6,491 nucleotides of DNA. Source: Gammaproteobacteria bacterium. Lineage in GTDB: Bacteria > Pseudomonadota > Gammaproteobacteria > Granulosicoccales > Granulosicoccaceae. The notes beneath the pieces are model-generated. The model was not told where the DNA came from. It did no database searches and saw only the letters and a program-made list of their open reading frames with translations. This document shows, piece by piece, positions 335-6,491 of the stretch (positions are counted from its first letter, which is position 1; every line of letters starts with the position of its first letter). The DNA is taken from NCBI GenBank assembly GCA_019634245.1, contig JAHQVR010000303.1, positions 1 through 6,491 of the forward strand. The letters run 5' to 3'. Made by a program: the position numbers and the translations under genes.

Positions 335-1066
335 GTGAATAATCCTGAACAACTTGATGTATCGGTATGGAGAGGCACTGGGGAGTCAGGAGAATTTAAG
401 CTTTACAGTGTGCCTAGCTTTGAGAGCCAAACGGTGCTCGATATTGTTTCCTGGATACAGCTTAACGTTGATCCAACCCTGAGCTACCGCTTTGCCTGCA
501 GAGTGGGCATGTGCGTCAGTTGCGCCATGATGGTCAATGGGCAGCCACGCTGGACCTGTCGTACCCATGTCAGCAAAGTGTTGCAGGGGAATAGGCTGGA
601 AGTAGGGCCATTGCGCAACCTGCCGGTCATCAAAGACCTGGCCACGGATATGGATCCCTTTTTTGGCAAGTGGATAGAGGCGCAGGGTTGGCATGAGTCT
701 GGTCTAACCAGGCACGATGATATTCCTTGCGTGGATCCACAGAGTGAGACCCGGAGTGAGGCAGACGACGGTATAGAGTGTATCAACTGCGCTGTCTGCT
801 ACGCCGCTTGCGATACTGTGACTCATCACCCTGAGTATTTGGGGCCTGCGGCATTACAGCGCGCCTGGACTGTATATAACGATGAAAAAAATACTAACAA
901 AGCTCGGGTGTTACAGGCTGTGTCAGGTAGTAACGGCTGCCACAATTGTCATTCGATGGGCAGTTGTACACAGCATTGCCCTAATGAGCTCAACCCGATG
1001 AAAGCTATTGCCGGGTTTAAAAAAGAGACCCTAAAGACCTTTTGGAAACGAACCAAGCATGCTTGA
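335..1066 (+). CDS. Succinate dehydrogenase/fumarate reductase-like iron-sulfur subunit
   Basis: This is the electron-transfer subunit that carries electrons between the flavoprotein and the membrane anchor; at 243 residues it has normal family length. An N-terminal plant-type ferredoxin domain binds [2Fe-2S] through Cys55, Cys60, Cys63 (CRVGMCVSC) and Cys75. The C-terminal domain has ECINCAVCYAAC (Cys149, 152, 155, 159), and CHSMGSCTQHCP supplies Cys205, 211 and 215. These are all the ligands expected for [4Fe-4S] and [3Fe-4S] clusters. ECINCxxCYAAC and the following HPEYLGPAAL resemble FrdB-type proteins more than mitochondrial-type SdhB. An extra Cys202 sits three residues before Cys205. 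The GTG start is the only option: an in-frame TAG lies at 323-325 and the next start would remove the 2Fe-2S region. It is first in the operon and overlaps the next gene by 8 bp. The family assignment is secure, but the physiological substrate of the complex is not. Confidence 0.93.
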   Translation: MNNPEQLDVSVWRGTGESGEFKLYSVPSFESQTVLDIVSWIQLNVDPTLSYRFACRVGMCVSCAMMVNGQPRWTCRTHVSKVLQGNRLEVGPLRNLPVIKDLATDMDPFFGKWIEAQGWHESGLTRHDDIPCVDPQSETRSEADDGIECINCAVCYAACDTVTHHPEYLGPAALQRAWTVYNDEKNTNKARVLQAVSGSNGCHNCHSMGSCTQHCPNELNPMKAIAGFKKETLKTFWKRTKHA

Positions 1067-1397
1067 TGCGCGTTTATTTTTACTTCAGCGGTTAACGGCT
1101 CTGGTGATGGCTCCATTGGTGTTGGGCCATCTGATTACTATGATCTATGCGGTACAAGGTGGATTATCAGCCGAGGAAATTTTAGGTAGAACACAAGGGT
1201 CTGTTTTTTGGGTGCTGTTTTATGGCATCTTCGTAACGGCTGTATCGATTCATGCGGCGATTGGGCTTCGGGTGGTGTTGTATGAATGGCTTAATGTCAG
1301 AGGCTTTGCCTTGACGGTATTGTCCTGGTTGATTGCGATGATATTGCTTTATACAGGGTTACAAGCCGTTCTTGCTGTGACGGGTTTTGTTTCATGA
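1059..1397 (+). CDS. Succinate dehydrogenase/fumarate reductase-like membrane anchor, first subunit
   Basis: A 112-residue hydrophobic protein with three predicted transmembrane helices (roughly 12-32, 49-75 and 84-107). QRLTALVMAPLVLGH resembles the 'HRxSGxxL...H' helix of SdhC-type anchors with the first His replaced by Gln. His24 (VLGHLITM) and His65 (VSIHAAIGLR) sit in helices 1 and 2, where heme b ligands are found. This subunit should anchor the catalytic dimer to the cytoplasmic membrane and help form the quinone site. It starts inside the end of the iron-sulfur gene, and its TGA overlaps the next ATG (ATGA), which points to translational coupling. Sequence conservation in such anchors is low, so the call leans on helix pattern, histidines and context. 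Confidence 0.82.
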   Translation: MLDARLFLLQRLTALVMAPLVLGHLITMIYAVQGGLSAEEILGRTQGSVFWVLFYGIFVTAVSIHAAIGLRVVLYEWLNVRGFALTVLSWLIAMILLYTGLQAVLAVTGFVS

Positions 1398-1735
1398 TCA
1401 AGCCCAAGCGACAGGAGCCTTTATGGCTTGCCTTCATCGTACACAGGATTTCGGGTATTGCCTTAGCGGTGTTCTTACCGTTTCATTTCTGGGTGTTGTC
1501 ATTAGCGTTAACTGATACAGCGAGATTGAACACATTTCTTCACTGGACTGAACACCCGTTGGTGTCAATCGCAGAATTCGGTTTGGTGTTTTTGCTGTGC
1601 ATACATTTTTTTGGTGGTATTCGATTGATGGCAATGGAATGGCTTCCGTGGTCTGACAAACAAAAAACGTTTGCAGCAATGGCCACAGCGTTTGCACTTC
1701 TGGTGGCTGGTGTGTTTTTGCTTAAGGCAGTTTGA
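1394..1735 (+). CDS. Succinate dehydrogenase/fumarate reductase-like membrane anchor, second subunit (cytochrome b)
   Basis: A 113-residue protein with three predicted membrane helices (about 13-38, 56-79 and 92-112). It carries the SdhC hallmark HRISGIAL (His17, Arg18, Ser20, Gly21). His31 (FLPFHFW) and His71 (LCIHFFGGIR) are candidate heme ligands, and the FFGGIRLMAMEW stretch is typical of cytochrome b subunits of this family. Together with the preceding anchor it should form the heme- and quinone-binding membrane domain. The ATG overlaps the upstream stop, and the flavoprotein gene begins 3 bp after its TGA with AAGG about 10 nt before that start. Which of the two anchors corresponds to SdhC or SdhD in other systems is unclear. 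Confidence 0.87.
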   Translation: MIKPKRQEPLWLAFIVHRISGIALAVFLPFHFWVLSLALTDTARLNTFLHWTEHPLVSIAEFGLVFLLCIHFFGGIRLMAMEWLPWSDKQKTFAAMATAFALLVAGVFLLKAV

Positions 1736-1738
1736 TTC

Positions 1739-3499
1739 ATGGTATCGACGCCCAACATCGACAGGATTGATACAGACATCTTAATCCTTGGCACCGGGGG
1801 TGCGGGATTGTTTGCAGCGCTGCATGCCCAACAAACAGCCCCTGCTGGCACTCGCATTACATTGGCGGTCAAAGGGTTGATCGGCAAGTGTGGTTGTACC
1901 CGAATGGTTCAAGGCGGTTACAACGTGGCCCTGGGCGGGGGTGATACGGTTGAGCGGCATTTTATGGATACCATCAAAGGTGGGATGTGGTTGCCGAACC
2001 AGGACATGGCGTGGCGATTGTGTGAGCAAGCGGTGGTACGAATTAGAGAACTGGAAAACGAAATCGGCTGTTTTTTTGATCGAAACAATGATGGCACGCT
2101 TCATCAGAAAGCCTTTGCTGGGCAAACGGCTGATAGAACGGTTCATAAAGGTGATTTGACTGGTATCGAAATCATTAACCGGCTGATGGAACAAGTACTT
2201 GCAAGCCCGGTTGAAAAACTGCAAGAGCACCGAGCGATTAGCATCATTCCAACTAGAGATGGCTCGGCCATTTCAGGTGTGTTGATGATTGATATGCGCA
2301 CTGGGGGATACCGCTTTGTTCGCGCAAAAACCGTGTTGATGGCAACTGGCGGCGGTCCGACGATGTACAAATACCATACGCCCTCTGGTGATAAAACGAT
2401 GGATGGGTTGGCTATGGCATTGCGAGTGGGGCTGCCATTGCGAGACATGGAAATGGTGCAGTTCCATCCAACCGGTTTGCTGGCCGGGGACCACACTCGA
2501 ATGACGGGTACCGTTTTGGAAGAAGGTTTAAGAGGTGCAGGCGGTCAACTTATCAACCATCACGATGCTCGCTTTATGTTCGACTACGATGAACGCGGAG
2601 AGCGAGCCACTCGCGATATCGTTAGCCGAGCCATTTATTCTGAGATGTCGAAAAACAACAACCCTGAACAGGAGGGTGTGTTCATTTCTATGGGTCATTT
2701 AGGGCCAGCCAATGTAGAACAGAAATTCAAAGGCATGGTTAAGCGCTGCGCGGACAGTGGATTTGACTTAGCCGCAGGTTTAGTACCGGTGGTTCCGACT
2801 GCTCATTATTTTATGGGTGGTGTCGTTGTCGATGTGGATACAAGAACTCAGATGGAAGGATTATATGTTGCCGGTGAGGATGCTGGCGGAGCCCATGGTT
2901 CTAATCGACTCGGTGGCAATGGGGTAGCGAATTCAACGGTGTATGGCGGCATTGCAGGTGACACCATGGGCCGAGATATTACCGGCATGGCTGCTTTGAG
3001 AGAGCCTGATGAATCTGTGTTAGCCGCAGAGATCGCCAGGGCTAATTACCCCTTGCATCAGCCACCCCAGCTGCTGCAACCTTTGAGGAAAACACTTCAA
3101 GAGATGATGTGGGATGATGCCGGGGTAATTCGTACCCACGCAGGGCTGAATCATGGCTTAGCTGAGCTTCAGCAGATATCCGATGAGTTGATGACCATTG
3201 GTGTCGATGATTCACAGCTAGCCTTCAACTTATCCTGGCATGATTGGCTGAATATGCGTTCACTGTGTGATATTTCTGAAGTCATAATAAAAGCGTCATT
3301 GTCGCGCACGAATTCGCGAGGGGCTCATTTCCGCTCCGATTTTCCTGATTCCGGCGACTTAGCAAGCTCTTATTTTACGGTTGCAACATCTAATGGAATG
3401 AATGTATCTGTGAGCCAAGAGCCTGTCGAGTTTTCAGTAGTCAAACCGGGCGATACGATTTTGCCCGACCATGAACCAGAGACTTTGGTGGCCTCATGA
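1739..3499 (+). CDS. Succinate dehydrogenase/fumarate reductase-like flavoprotein without the covalent-FAD histidine
   Basis: The 586-residue catalytic subunit should catalyse two-electron oxidation of a succinate-like substrate (or the reverse) using FAD. The Rossmann motif GTGGAG is at residues 18-23. Typical active-site elements are present: QFHPTG (His243), EEGLRG (Glu262, Arg265), TRDIVSRA (Arg292), PTAHYFMGG (His356) and GSNRLGG (Arg390), with the FAD-binding AGE at 378-380. The segment that normally reads RSHT, whose His binds FAD covalently, is here KCGCT, with Cys53 at the His position. FAD is therefore probably non-covalent or held differently. Glu261 replaces the substrate-contacting Thr of E. 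coli FrdA, and the usual RGEGG reads RGAGG (Ala267). The ATG follows the second anchor by 3 bp, and the stop overlaps the hydratase alpha gene. L-aspartate oxidase is related and also non-covalent, but it does not normally come with cognate iron-sulfur and anchor genes. Family is firm; substrate unknown. Confidence 0.92.
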   Translation: MVSTPNIDRIDTDILILGTGGAGLFAALHAQQTAPAGTRITLAVKGLIGKCGCTRMVQGGYNVALGGGDTVERHFMDTIKGGMWLPNQDMAWRLCEQAVVRIRELENEIGCFFDRNNDGTLHQKAFAGQTADRTVHKGDLTGIEIINRLMEQVLASPVEKLQEHRAISIIPTRDGSAISGVLMIDMRTGGYRFVRAKTVLMATGGGPTMYKYHTPSGDKTMDGLAMALRVGLPLRDMEMVQFHPTGLLAGDHTRMTGTVLEEGLRGAGGQLINHHDARFMFDYDERGERATRDIVSRAIYSEMSKNNNPEQEGVFISMGHLGPANVEQKFKGMVKRCADSGFDLAAGLVPVVPTAHYFMGGVVVDVDTRTQMEGLYVAGEDAGGAHGSNRLGGNGVANSTVYGGIAGDTMGRDITGMAALREPDESVLAAEIARANYPLHQPPQLLQPLRKTLQEMMWDDAGVIRTHAGLNHGLAELQQISDELMTIGVDDSQLAFNLSWHDWLNMRSLCDISEVIIKASLSRTNSRGAHFRSDFPDSGDLASSYFTVATSNGMNVSVSQEPVEFSVVKPGDTILPDHEPETLVAS

Positions 3500-4458
3500 T
3501 TTCAATTGATAGCATTCAAACAACGGCCCAAAGTTTGATGGAGAAAGCGGCCATTGAAATTCCGGATGACTACTTGGGTGGCATCAGAAAGGCTGCTAAA
3601 TCAGAAACGGGTGGGCTGGCCTCCTATGTGATTCATGCCATGCTTGATAACTACGATGCAGCCAAAGAAGATCGTTGTGCGATGTGCGGCGACACGGGTG
3701 TACCCCGATGGTATGTCAAGATGGGTAATGAGGCCTCCATCGAAGGTGGTCCGATTGCTCTAGAGGCAGCCCTGCGGCGTGCAACAGCTGATGCTACACG
3801 CAGTGTACCGTTGCGGCCGAATCGAGTTCATCCATTGTGGCGCACCGACCATGACAATAATGTGGGCATTGGCGCACCCGAAATTGAATATGCGTTTGAG
3901 CCTGAAGGCGATTGGCTGGATTTGATCACTGTGCATAAAGGTGGATTGTTCGGTACTGACTACCGGATGTTATTTCCGTCAGATGGTATAGAAGGTATCA
4001 AGCGTTTTTATCTGGATAGTCTTGTCGCCTTTGGCAAACGCGGTTTGGCCTGTCAACCGGCAATCATCGGTATTGGCCTTGGGGGTGCGAAGGATGCGTG
4101 CATGGTGCTGGGTAAGCGCGCCGCCTGTTTGCGAACAGTGGGAAGTCAAAACCCTGATCCAAAAATCGCAGAGCTAGAGGAGGATTTTAAAGAACTGGGT
4201 AATTCCATTGGCATGGGCGCGATGGGATTTGTCGGAAAAAACATGGTGGTCGATTGTCATATCGAAGTGGGGTATTGCCACACAGGTGGAATGCAGATGA
4301 GCGTTCATGCCTTTTGTTTGTCTTCGCGTAGGGCGGTGGCTCGACTCTATCCGGATGGTCGGGTGGAGTATCGAACAGATCCTGACTGGTTCACTGATTA
4401 TCAACGTCGAGACACTGTCGACTGGACGCCCGCTATGAGTCAGGCGTTGGAATCATGA
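3496..4458 (+). CDS. Class I fumarase/L-tartrate dehydratase-like hydro-lyase, alpha subunit
   Basis: This 320-residue protein matches the N-terminal (alpha) domain of iron-sulfur hydro-lyases such as class I fumarase, TtdA and mesaconase. These add or remove water across the double bond of fumarate-like acids using a [4Fe-4S] cluster. All three expected cluster cysteines are visible: Cys64 in CAMCGDTG, Cys186 in CQPAIIGIGLGG, and Cys274 in HTGGMQMSVHAFC, which is followed by RRAVARLYPDGRVEY. Canonical members read CQDTG; here Gln is replaced by Gly65, while the Asp66 proposed to act in catalysis is kept. Cys61 is additional. Enzymes of this class split into alpha and beta are the rule in TtdAB-type systems. 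The ATG overlaps the flavoprotein stop and its own stop overlaps the beta-subunit start. Its place after a dehydrogenase complex suggests that it hydrates the product of that complex. Confidence 0.9.
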   Translation: MISIDSIQTTAQSLMEKAAIEIPDDYLGGIRKAAKSETGGLASYVIHAMLDNYDAAKEDRCAMCGDTGVPRWYVKMGNEASIEGGPIALEAALRRATADATRSVPLRPNRVHPLWRTDHDNNVGIGAPEIEYAFEPEGDWLDLITVHKGGLFGTDYRMLFPSDGIEGIKRFYLDSLVAFGKRGLACQPAIIGIGLGGAKDACMVLGKRAACLRTVGSQNPDPKIAELEEDFKELGNSIGMGAMGFVGKNMVVDCHIEVGYCHTGGMQMSVHAFCLSSRRAVARLYPDGRVEYRTDPDWFTDYQRRDTVDWTPAMSQALES

Positions 4459-5135
4459 ACTCTCCTGCGCAACCCAGACAGCTCCGTTTAAGTACCACAC
4501 CTACAGATGAATCACTTCAAGAGCTTCAGCTCGGTGATATCGTTTTTCTTGATGGCCTGATGTACACCGCGCGCGAAGGTGTTTATACCCGAGCATTGGA
4601 GAAAAAAGCGAACCTACCACTAAATTTACCGGACGATAGTGCGGCAAATTTTCATTGCTCGCCTGCGGCTGCGATTCGCGATGACGGTACATTCGATATG
4701 GGTGCTGTGACGGCAACAGCATCCTTTCGGTTTGCTAAATGGCTGCCTGAGTGGATGGAGAAAACGGGCGCTAAGTTGATCATCGGTAAAGGTGGAATGT
4801 CGTCCAAGGATTACAAAAACTATTTTGTACCTAATGGTGCCGTGTATTTATCCACGGTGGGTTATGGCACCGGTGCGCTACTCGGGCGAGGCATCGAAGG
4901 GGTGGAAGCGGTGCATTGGAACGAAGAACTTGGTTTGGCGCAAGCGATGTGGGTGATCAAATGCAACAATATGGGCCCTTTTATTGTAGCGTCTGACCTA
5001 GAAGGAAATTGCTTGTTTGAACGAGAAAACGAAAAGATTGCAGAAAACCTCGAGCGCGTATATGAAGGGACCAAGCCGGCGGTGTTAAAGCGTTTTGGTG
5101 AAACGGATGATCGCAGCGACGAACTGATCGGCTAG
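4455..5135 (+). CDS. Class I fumarase/L-tartrate dehydratase-like hydro-lyase, beta subunit
   Basis: A 226-residue C-terminal (beta) partner of the hydro-lyase. The fold is recognisable from LGDIVFLDGLMYTAR (residues 26-40), the GKGGM loop (111-115), and GAVYLSTVGYGTGALLGRGI. Its role is to complete the active site with Arg40, Lys112, Thr88 and Arg92; the last two keep the four-residue spacing of the GPTTxxR motif. Several positions differ from fumarases and TtdB: ARDxxH reads AREGVY (Glu41, Tyr44), and GPTTxxRMD reads ATASFRFA with the Asp lost. These changes suggest a substrate other than fumarate, L-malate or tartrate. An N-terminal stretch of about 20 residues (MNSPAQPRQLRL...) precedes the domain. 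It is coupled to the alpha gene by an ATGA overlap. Confidence 0.88.
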   Translation: MNSPAQPRQLRLSTTPTDESLQELQLGDIVFLDGLMYTAREGVYTRALEKKANLPLNLPDDSAANFHCSPAAAIRDDGTFDMGAVTATASFRFAKWLPEWMEKTGAKLIIGKGGMSSKDYKNYFVPNGAVYLSTVGYGTGALLGRGIEGVEAVHWNEELGLAQAMWVIKCNNMGPFIVASDLEGNCLFERENEKIAENLERVYEGTKPAVLKRFGETDDRSDELIG

Positions 5136-5148
5136 CTCATAAATTAAA

Positions 5149-6180
5149 ATGCAAGTCGATGTCAACACACTAACAAGGGCTCTTAATCAACATCCAACAG
5201 TAGACCTTGGTTTGTCAACGACGCCCATCGAGTGCATGCGCAGAATGGGTGATGAGCTTGGTGTGAATTTGTGGGTGAAGCGAGATGACACCGCATCGCT
5301 GGCTCTGGGTGGCAATAAAGTCAGGCAACTGGGCTACTATCTGGGAGCTGCTGCTCATAACACAGACACCGTGTTAATAACTGGTGCCATTCAATCCAAT
5401 TTTGTTCGTCTCTGTGTAGCCGCAGCCAGGAAATTAGGTTGGCATCCGGTGGTGCAGTTAGAGCATCGGGTATCTAACCAAAGTGCACTTTATCAATCCT
5501 CAGGCAATGTGTTACTCAATCGTTTAATGGGTGCGGATATTCGTTACTTCGATGGAGGTGATGATGAGGCTGCTGCAGACCATGCGTTGGATCAATTGGC
5601 GGCAGAACAACGTGCACTAGGTCGGACACCCCACGTTGTCCACCTGGGCATGGACCATCCACCTATCGGGGCTTTGGGGTATGTGGAGTGTGCATTGGAA
5701 GCTGACTCGCAATTGAATGTTCTGGAGATGAAACCTGATCATGTGGTGATTCCTTCTGGCAGTGGTTTGACCCATGCTGGGTTTCTGATCGGAGCGAGTG
5801 CCTGGGATAGCTCTGTGAAGGTTCACGGTGTTTGCGTACGACGCGACAAGGCGAAGCAGCAAACGCGCATTTTCACCCGGGCAACAGAAGCCGCTAGGCT
5901 GATGGGTTTAGACCCTCTGAGCATCGAGCTTGATGTTCGCCTTGATGATGCCGTTCTGCCTCCTGGGTACGGCCAATTAAATGAATCGGTACTGCGAGCC
6001 ATACGTATGGCTGCCGAAACAGAAGGCCTGCTGCTCGATCCCGTGTACTCGGGTCGGACCATGGCGGGTTTGATGTCCTTGGTTGAACGTGGTGTGATAA
6101 AAAAGGGCGAGAGTGTATTGTTTATTCATACCGGTGGTATTCCTGCTGTGTTTGCCTATCAAAATGAACTGGTGTCTTAG
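5149..6180 (+). CDS. Fold-type II PLP enzyme of the D-cysteine desulfhydrase / cysteate sulfo-lyase / ACC deaminase family
   Basis: At 343 residues it has family length. KRDDTASLALGGNKVRQL contains the PLP-binding Lys57; GAIQSN (79-84) is the substrate-carboxylate loop; SGSGLTHAG (203-211) is the phosphate-binding loop; HTGG lies at 327-330. ACC deaminases have a Glu after the Tyr of DPVY and a Leu in place of the Thr of HTGG. Here they read DPVYS (Ser301) and HTGG (Thr328), as in D-cysteine desulfhydrases. I therefore expect beta-elimination of an amino acid (giving a 2-oxo acid and ammonia plus a leaving group), not cyclopropane ring opening. The usual QSNHxRQ is QSNFVRL (Phe85, Leu88), so substrate preference may differ. 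It starts 13 bp after the hydratase beta gene with a poor ribosome-binding site, still on the same transcript by spacing. Candidate substrates include D-cysteine, cysteate or a beta-hydroxy amino acid; none can be chosen from sequence alone. Confidence 0.85.
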   Translation: MQVDVNTLTRALNQHPTVDLGLSTTPIECMRRMGDELGVNLWVKRDDTASLALGGNKVRQLGYYLGAAAHNTDTVLITGAIQSNFVRLCVAAARKLGWHPVVQLEHRVSNQSALYQSSGNVLLNRLMGADIRYFDGGDDEAAADHALDQLAAEQRALGRTPHVVHLGMDHPPIGALGYVECALEADSQLNVLEMKPDHVVIPSGSGLTHAGFLIGASAWDSSVKVHGVCVRRDKAKQQTRIFTRATEAARLMGLDPLSIELDVRLDDAVLPPGYGQLNESVLRAIRMAAETEGLLLDPVYSGRTMAGLMSLVERGVIKKGESVLFIHTGGIPAVFAYQNELVS

Positions 6181-6236: not shown

Positions 6237-6353
<117 letters not shown>

Positions 6354-6355
<2 letters not shown>

Positions 6356-6369
6356 TTGGCTTGCCAGGG
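6354..6369. other. Small inverted repeat CCTTGGC/GCCAGGG
   Basis: Immediately after the repeat array, CCTTGGC and GCCAGGG can pair over 6-7 bp (one G-U pair) around a TT centre. There is no T-run after it, so it is not a typical intrinsic terminator. It may be a small structural element or chance. Confidence 0.25.
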
Positions 6370-6400: not shown

Positions 6401-6491
6401 ATGACAATTTTATCCACGAAGGCACAAACGCTAAATGCGAAGGTCGGAGCAATAGCTCTGTTTTTTGGTGCTTTTTTCACTCTGCTACTAA
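6401..6491 (+). CDS. Unidentified membrane protein, N-terminal fragment
   Basis: An ATG at 6401 opens a frame that runs 30 codons to the window edge: MTILSTKAQTLNAKVG, then IALFFGAFFTLLL. A short polar N-terminus followed by a strongly hydrophobic helix beginning near residue 17 suggests an inner-membrane protein. The helix-first layout would suit a small transporter subunit (for example TctB- or TRAP DctQ-like), but the fragment is too short to say. If it is a transporter for a carboxylate, it would fit the neighbouring catabolic operon. It is separated from that operon by 220 bp holding the heptad array, so it may have its own promoter. Confidence 0.55.
   Translation, partial: MTILSTKAQTLNAKVGAIALFFGAFFTLLL

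Follow-up and report, generated by a model that had tools for sequence, protein, structure and literature searches.

We analyzed a putative organosulfonate-catabolic operon on contig JAHQVR010000303.1 (assembly GCA_019634245.1) of a gammaproteobacterium of the family Granulosicoccaceae; the whole stretch of 6,491 nucleotides, apparently the entire contig, is called the window here. Calling of open reading frames (ORFs) revealed seven co-directional genes, packed into positions 335-6180 and all located on the plus strand. They encode a complex related to succinate dehydrogenase (SDH) and fumarate reductase (FRD), a hydro-lyase of two subunits and an enzyme dependent on pyridoxal 5'-phosphate (PLP):

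335..1066, +, iron-sulfur (Fe-S) subunit, SdhB/FrdB-like, with a 2Fe-2S and a dicluster ferredoxin domain and a GTG start (TIGR00384, 172.1 bits, cut-off 88)
1059..1397, +, membrane anchor of the Sdh_cyt family (PF01127, 35.2 bits, cut-off 25.8)
1394..1735, +, membrane anchor of the SdhC cytochrome b556 type (TIGR02970, 65.2 bits, cut-off 52.3)
1739..3499, +, flavoprotein of a complex II of non-canonical type, a candidate 3-sulfopropanoate dehydrogenase (Pfam, NCBIfam, alignment)
3496..4458, +, alpha subunit (TtdA/FumA-N type) of a class I [4Fe-4S] hydro-lyase, a candidate sulfoacrylate hydratase (Pfam, NCBIfam)
4455..5135, +, beta subunit (TtdB/FumA-C type) of the class I hydro-lyase (Pfam, NCBIfam)
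5149..6180, +, fold-type II PLP enzyme of the D-cysteine desulfhydrase/CuyA superfamily, by its sequence in a subfamily of its own; proposed 3-sulfo amino acid desulfonating lyase

Neighboring genes overlap by 8, 4, 4 and 4 bp or are separated by gaps of 3 and 13 bp. The original prediction, made from the DNA sequence, had described a six-gene operon with overlaps of 1-8 bp and gaps of 3-13 bp; the genes it listed are all present and its gaps agree with ours, but they number seven and the overlaps span 4-8 bp. Pfam and NCBIfam bear out its description of an SDH/FRD-like complex in the order B-C-D-A, a split class I hydro-lyase and a fold-type II PLP enzyme. The Pfam domains are Fer2_3 and a 4Fe-4S dicluster domain in the Fe-S subunit, Sdh_cyt in both anchors, FAD_binding_2 and Succ_DH_flav_C in the flavoprotein, Fumerase in alpha, Fumerase_C in beta and PALP in the PLP enzyme. 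With a flavoprotein, an Fe-S subunit and two Sdh_cyt anchors in a single operon, the complex belongs to the Complex II superfamily, and the alpha and beta domains place the hydratase in the class I Fe-S hydro-lyase superfamily.

Conservation of the gene block among relatives

To place the operon among its relatives (loci are labeled L, genomes G), we searched genomes with the flavoprotein at E <= 1e-150. The block of complex II-like and hydro-lyase genes was found in 9 of 100 genomes of the family of G001, in 5 of 61 genomes of the family of G002 and in at least 10 of 398 genomes of the phylum of G001, the last figure being a lower bound, as at most three candidates per genome were scored among the matches listed. 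Since so few genomes of the phylum carry it, the block is accessory. With G003 added to the searched sets, the comparison covers 26 loci from 25 genomes; the PLP gene led to G002 and G003 and the flavoprotein to the others, and G001, whose family was sampled, likewise came via the PLP gene.

A search for the same gene order across genomes had been suggested as a check of the original prediction. The order B-C-D-A-alpha-beta recurs in 25 of the 26 genome loci, and a hydratase lies near the complex II-like genes in all 26, the loci having been located via the flavoprotein. At some loci A, alpha and beta are separated by other genes, which take up 6 kb in L082; in L044 beta lies off the contig, and in L083 the hydro-lyase sits between D and A. 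The arrangement is conserved among the relatives beyond chance. The PLP gene, however, is the variable part: it adjoins the block in the window, in a single genome locus (L051) and in none of the 13 plasmid loci.

On plasmids, flavoproteins 60-80% identical to that of the window occur in 15 records; within the best 40 of 467 matches, these are followed by three at 45-47% (one from Rhodococcus, two from haloarchaea) and then by others at 30-35%. The 13 plasmid loci comprise 11 of the 15 records and the two haloarchaeal ones; L036 came without annotation, and L004/L039 and L008/L037 are near-duplicates. The 120 nearest flavoproteins consist of the window's own and 119 others at 80-82% identity, many of them from Roseobacters, and the hydratase family was found in Roseovarius.

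Sulfite and organosulfonate genes around the block

A gene of the TauE family (PF01925) is present within 10 kb of the flavoprotein gene, at distances of 53-8346 bp, in 14 of the 26 genome loci (9/16 in the first set of loci and 5/10 in the phylum-wide set, counted by hand from the tables). The 25 genomes hold 167 TauE-family genes in 108.6 Mb (1.54 per Mb), which gives a chance of about 0.033 per locus and a binomial P of ~1e-14 (~8e-6 for the ten phylum-wide loci alone) in a test that presumes even spread and independent loci. At least one of five markers (TauE, YeiH/CuyZ, SorA/SoxC-like, SuyB-like and CuyA) was detected in 15/26 genome loci, which thus have genes for sulfite export or oxidation near the block, and in 12/13 plasmid loci. 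These counts derive from a uniform BLAST table, with Pfam TauE calls added for the genome loci; most reference proteins come from the plasmid loci, so that plasmid matches are partly self-matches, and the TauE match of L036 is weak (26%).

Recurrent neighbors in the plasmid loci include TauE/SafE, YeiH, SoxC or sulfite oxidase with a cytochrome c, and UxaA-family pairs, and further Ldh-family and hydroxyacid dehydrogenases, TctABC, NIPSNAP and LysR; sulfolactaldehyde 3-reductase is among the named products of L006. The exporter that adjoins CuyA in Ruegeria pomeroyi belongs to the YeiH family, and we take it to be the cuyZ product (SPOA0157) called a 'sulfite exporter' in a passage of PMC4334477. 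Within about 20 kb, L083 combines SuyAB-type, ComC-type, SlcC-type, HisD-family (HpsN-like) and TauE genes with the complex. The SuyAB-, ComC- and SlcC-type genes, four in all, stand in a row there, as in the part of PMC12421959 on Paracoccus wurundjeri. From family and synteny we take the UxaA pairs for SuyAB, the Ldh-family gene for ComC and the hydroxyacid dehydrogenase for SlcC. A true CuyA (552.8 bits, cut-off 450) is encoded about 10 kb from the flavoprotein in G110 (L059), on the same contig and outside the 20-kb stretch. The locus of Pseudomonas sp. MPC6 holds TctABC, TauE, MmsA, YeiH and sulfite oxidase. At 13-17 kb from its hydratase there follow genes for a CuyZ-type exporter, a HisD-family protein and a true CuyA (562.2 bits), the last 13 kb from the block. 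In the two haloarchaea, a SuyAB-type pair and TauE adjoin the flavoprotein gene.

Xsc scores above its cut-off in 19 of the 25 host genomes and in none of 14 control genomes. Among the 25 block-bearing genomes, a SuyB-like gene occurs in 11 and Xsc or a SuyB-like gene in 23; when CuyA is included, for which 15 of the host genomes were searched, the total rises to 24 through G110. Judged by their gene content, the hosts are equipped to finish a sulfonate route. None of the three was found in G004, a genome with two copies of the block (L045 and L046), each followed by genes for a branched-chain-type ATP-binding cassette importer; no sulfite gene was found near these copies.

Two other genes recur beside the block. 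One encodes a thiamine pyrophosphate-dependent enzyme of the acetolactate synthase type and adjoins the block in 9/26 genome and 3/13 plasmid loci (L048:15485-17083, L040:5646-7256, L043:1856-3487 and others); it was rejected as Xsc (171.5 vs 676.4 bits) and could decarboxylate a 2-oxo sulfonate. The other, of the mandelate racemase/muconate lactonizing family, is present in three TauE loci (L042:5497-6657, L035:15398-16537 and L055:12585-13769).

The loci are of two kinds. A window-type hydratase (alpha at least 64% identical) is encoded in 25 genome and 9 plasmid loci, and none of these 34 contains a SuyB-like gene; all five loci with another hydratase do (P 1.7e-6 if independent, the five loci representing about three lineages). 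This other hydratase is a divergent class I enzyme in L008, L037 and L083 and an ArgH-like lyase in L010 and L038, and sulfite genes accompany both hydratase types. At least two replacements of the hydration step seem to have occurred, in association with the mode of sulfite release, and the split may reflect differing stereochemistry of sulfolactate or a window-type hydratase that frees sulfite itself. The haloarchaeal loci (L010:10218-11720 and L038:8290-9792) combine a flavoprotein and an Fe-S subunit with the ArgH-like lyase and a SuyAB-type pair, and have no annotated anchors or class I hydratase.

The flavoprotein active site and the tricarboxylic acid cycle enzymes

We aligned 183 flavoproteins of the family (157 distinct) with those of the two haloarchaea and with the canonical SdhA of G002 and G003; the alignment leans to near relatives, since the sequences less than 70% identical to the window's number 17. 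His243, Glu262, Arg292, His356 and Arg390 (window numbering) are conserved in all 187 sequences. We take their Escherichia coli SdhA equivalents to be His242, Glu255, Arg286, His354 and Arg399; the numbers of His242, Thr254, Glu255 and Arg286 were counted on an alignment with 1nek, and those of His354 and Arg399, as well as all residue roles, are presumed. At the Thr254 position, which is Thr in the canonical pair, 1nek and 7d6v and Ser in 6lum, the window has Glu261, and at the position of the His that links flavin adenine dinucleotide (FAD) it has Cys53. Canonical SDH has His for covalent FAD and Thr or Ser at the Thr254 site, whereas all 183 relatives and both haloarchaeal proteins have Cys and Glu. 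A loop at 251-256, absent from the canonical pair, carries Arg254; this residue is Arg (169) or Lys (14) in all 183 and Lys in both haloarchaea. As far as the alignment can tell, one end of the pocket appears rebuilt and the catalytic center kept. The altered residues would face the substrate, the basic loop may favor a sulfonate, and the flavin of the Cys53 family would be either non-covalent or differently linked.

Profile scores likewise set the operon apart. Among 25 NCBIfam models shown, the flavoprotein reaches no SdhA, FrdA, NadB or TfrA cut-off (TIGR01816, 327.1 vs 727.35; TIGR01812, 414.7 vs 567.3; TfrA, 470 of 718; NadB TIGR00551, 348.9 vs 452.75), and the presence of anchors and an Fe-S subunit further distinguishes it from the L-aspartate oxidase NadB. 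The hydro-lyase resembles class I fumarase and TtdAB in its split into alpha and beta, its Fumerase and Fumerase_C domains and a score above the TIGR00722 cut-off. It differs from them in its place near complex II-like genes, its replacement in SuyAB-type loci and scores below the fumarase and tartrate dehydratase equivalog cut-offs for alpha (PRK06246, 198.2 vs 276; PRK08230, 144.8 vs 365) and beta (PRK08228, 121.3 vs 264; PRK06043, 117.8 vs 269).

The original prediction of a dedicated gene set would have fallen had the hosts possessed no other SDH or fumarase. In the relatives, canonical SdhA scores above cut-off in 25/25 block-bearing genomes and FumC in 21/25, and the operon is an accessory set distinct from the enzymes of the tricarboxylic acid cycle. 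With known complex II the window family shares the subunit set, the Fe-S and anchor domains and the equivalents of His242, Arg286, His354 and Arg399. An ordinary SDH and fumarase in an unusual arrangement would account for the Fe-S, anchor and hydro-lyase domains, and for a probably similar cluster a Krebs cycle link has been proposed in a passage of PMC12421959. The B-C-D-A order of the window family, the basic loop, the accessory distribution and the replacement of Thr254 and the FAD-linking His in 183/183 relatives set it apart from complex II as known. Given these altered residues and the canonical enzymes elsewhere in the hosts, we reject this explanation as highly improbable.

A proposed 3-sulfopropanoate route and its competitors

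We consider it very probable that the operon acts on a sulfonate and that its pathway ends in sulfite. Because sulfite genes adjoin a succinate-type dehydrogenase and a fumarase-type hydratase, the predicted substrate is a sulfonate mimic of succinate, and since sulfolactate-type genes and CuyA are further neighbors, 3-sulfopropanoate, which is succinate with one carboxylate swapped for a sulfonate, is the simplest candidate. The membrane-bound dehydrogenase would convert 3-sulfopropanoate into 3-sulfoacrylate and pass the electrons via the Fe-S clusters to quinone, and the class I hydro-lyase would add water to yield 3-sulfolactate. Oxidation to sulfopyruvate and amination to cysteate would be carried out by enzymes encoded elsewhere, and the PLP enzyme would eliminate sulfite from cysteate, leaving pyruvate and ammonia. 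In relatives, SuyAB, CuyA or Xsc would provide the last steps, and the sulfite would be exported or oxidized. We judge the odds to be slightly in favor of this C3-organosulfonate module. Gene content, family membership, the altered active-site residues, conservation and the sulfonate genes around the block in relatives are observed, whereas the substrate, the hydration product and the substrate of the PLP enzyme are predicted; the logic of the original prediction, oxidation and then hydration of a succinate analogue, fits it.

Published work offers points of contact. According to a passage of PMC11489063 (2024), which cites a thesis, Roseovarius nubinhibens ISM degrades 3-sulfopropanoate via sulfoacrylate and sulfolactate, and bacterial degradation of this compound is otherwise unreported. 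This homotaurine route contains the intermediates predicted here, and the genus carries the hydratase family; in that passage the route stands without a gene assignment. In the literature searched, which excluded subscription papers and the thesis, we found no gene assignment for 3-sulfopropanoate breakdown. Sources of the compound named in PMC11489063 are homotaurine and, in some anaerobes, sulfoquinovose via dihydroxypropanesulfonate; its breakdown by Bilophila is called unclear in a passage of a 2026 review (PMC12890257).

In a 2025 proteomics study (PMC12421959), cluster 3 of Paracoccus wurundjeri (MDP0926751-0926761) was raised on sulfofucose. The passage on it describes genes of fumarate and tartrate metabolism with a TauE homologue, which in the authors' view may be linked to the Krebs cycle and act in sulfite export; unlike our reading, it does not propose a sulfonate dehydrogenase. 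Compared by description only, cluster 3 is probably the present block (cf. the Paracoccus loci L004 and L039). If so, it lends experimental support to a sulfonate role, and the passage has slightly raised our already high confidence in a sulfonate-to-sulfite function.

The PLP enzyme, which is 55-64% identical to the other 119 best of 4949 matches, shares with CuyA of R. pomeroyi the fold-type II superfamily, the best curated model and a sulfite-exporter-type neighbor in one relative; it differs in its separate subfamily and in having QSNF instead of QSNH. A PLP gene at 46-47% identity adjoins the block in L051, and in G127 a member of the subfamily stands in an apparent row of genes for a tripartite ATP-independent periplasmic transporter, TauE and the PLP enzyme. 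Taken with its near branch (46% or more identity, E <= 1e-70), the subfamily occurs in 9 of the 100 genomes of G001's family; the block, equally frequent, coincides with it in 4 genomes against 0.8 expected (Fisher 0.003; 0.002 without G001), a statistic that ignores phylogeny. A desulfonating role of the PLP enzyme is likely, though not secured. Action of this enzyme on a sulfur amino acid was the part of the original prediction that came closest.

A number of observations weigh against the 3-sulfopropanoate route or the evidence for it. TauE is a broad family, present in 14/14 control genomes and in 2-10 copies per host, so that its presence is no proof of sulfite. No marker of the five was found in 11/26 genome loci (L040, L041, L044, L045, L046, L051, L053, L075, L077, L079 and L082, of which L041 and L044 are cut by contig ends), and apart from the CuyA-like gene, the 6.5-kb contig of the window is devoid of sulfite and sulfonate genes. 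The labels SuyAB, SlcC, ComC, SorA and HpsN derive from family and neighborhood: NCBIfam gives no SuyAB match, with galactarate dehydratase far below its cut-off, the sulfolactate dehydrogenase model is the best for the Ldh-family genes yet reaches 204 and 217 of 500, and the SorA model score is below cut-off. Glu in place of Thr254 has no obvious preference for a sulfonate. The PLP enzyme is only 38% identical to R. pomeroyi CuyA and scores 309.6 bits with the CuyA model NF052482 (cut-off 450; positive controls 553.0, 552.8 and 562.2), and most of the relatives examined, those in L001, L002/L061, L003/L060, L032, L033, L034, L062 and L063, were not seen by sulfonate genes in annotations or with reference proteins. 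SuyB-like genes are missing from every locus with a window-type hydratase. Finally, the sulfofucose route is not reported, in the part of PMC12421959 concerned, to pass through 3-sulfopropanoate, and the induction of cluster 3 therefore speaks for sulfonates generally.

The distribution of SuyB-like genes would also fit a hydrative desulfonation, in which the dehydrogenase makes sulfoacrylate and the window-type hydratase hydroxylates the sulfonate-bearing carbon. This would yield 3-hydroxy-3-sulfopropanoate. Being the bisulfite adduct of malonate semialdehyde, it would fall apart into sulfite and malonate semialdehyde, and an MmsA-type enzyme would convert the latter to acetyl-CoA; in that case the PLP enzyme, of a new subfamily, would release sulfite by a parallel, independent route. 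MmsA scores above its cut-off (448.5) in Pseudomonas sp. MPC6 (L009, 695.3 bits), Cupriavidus sp. P-10 (L036, 690.6) and G301 (L080, 701.2), all with a window-type hydratase, and on chemical grounds the carbanion intermediate should gain more stability from a carboxylate than from a sulfonate. Known class I Fe-S hydro-lyases, however, put the hydroxyl alpha to the cluster-held carboxylate, a regiochemistry that speaks against this mechanism. MmsA is near in 3/39 loci only, sulfolactate-type dehydrogenases stand near the window-type hydratase in L004 and L039, Xsc or a SuyB-like gene is carried by most hosts (within the locus in G536), and the thesis route as cited in PMC11489063 passes through sulfolactate. 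We therefore view hydrative desulfonation as doubtful; if true, it would be a new desulfonation mechanism, with the sulfonate carbon respired via the quinone pool and no dedicated sulfo-lyase.

Somewhat less likely still is another sulfonated succinate analogue such as sulfosuccinate, whose product sulfofumarate would be hydrated to the bisulfite adduct of oxaloacetate and so release sulfite. The sulfite genes near the block suit this substrate, as does TctA of the tripartite tricarboxylate transporter (TTT) beside the block in 6/13 plasmid and 5/26 genome loci. Yet the neighbors that name a carbon skeleton (CuyA, SuyAB-type and sulfolactate-type dehydrogenase genes) indicate C3, and TTT systems carry sulfolactate too (SlcHFG, in a passage of PMC5812351). 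A pathway for an unsulfonated or amino-dicarboxylate, either aspartate-type or from methylsuccinate to mesaconate as the original prediction had it, with sulfite genes that are coincidental or serve the PLP enzyme alone, seems to us improbable. Its enzyme families are compatible, the NadB model gives the flavoprotein 348.9 bits, the name 'L-aspartate oxidase' stands in the source records of several relatives, and an Asp/Glu-type racemase adjoins CuyA in G110. The NadB cut-off is missed, however, and none of the 14 TauE-near loci has a window-subfamily PLP gene beside the block, so the sulfite genes do not serve the PLP enzyme. The annotated plasmid loci name no neighbor fitting the aspartate-type route, with sulfite and organosulfonate genes recurring instead, and no mesaconate or 3-methylaspartate product, in annotations read without a search aimed at mesaconate and with the genome-locus neighbors only partly named. 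A cysteate oxidase, with NadB-like action on cysteate, was set aside because the hydratase beside the complex would be needless.

Should the 3-sulfopropanoate route hold, a gene assignment would complete one step in the organosulfur cycle and may fill a gap in bacterial recycling of organic sulfur. It would explain a family that in marine Roseobacters goes by the names of fumarate reductase, L-aspartate oxidase and tartrate dehydratase, add a sulfonate to the substrates of complex II and yield gene markers for metagenomes.

No RNA family reaches its gathering score in the window, and promoter-like sites are not in excess (7 vs 7.1 in shuffles). Terminator-like sites number 14 against 6.5 in shuffles; 13 of the 14 lie inside operon genes. 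The partial ORFs at the contig ends (3-140 on the minus strand and 6401-6490 on the plus strand) have no Pfam match, and the former presumably bears a vague resemblance to prolyl-tRNA editing proteins. Between the PLP gene and the right contig end, positions 6245-6356 form a tandem array of 16 copies of the 7-base unit ACTGCCT and its variants.

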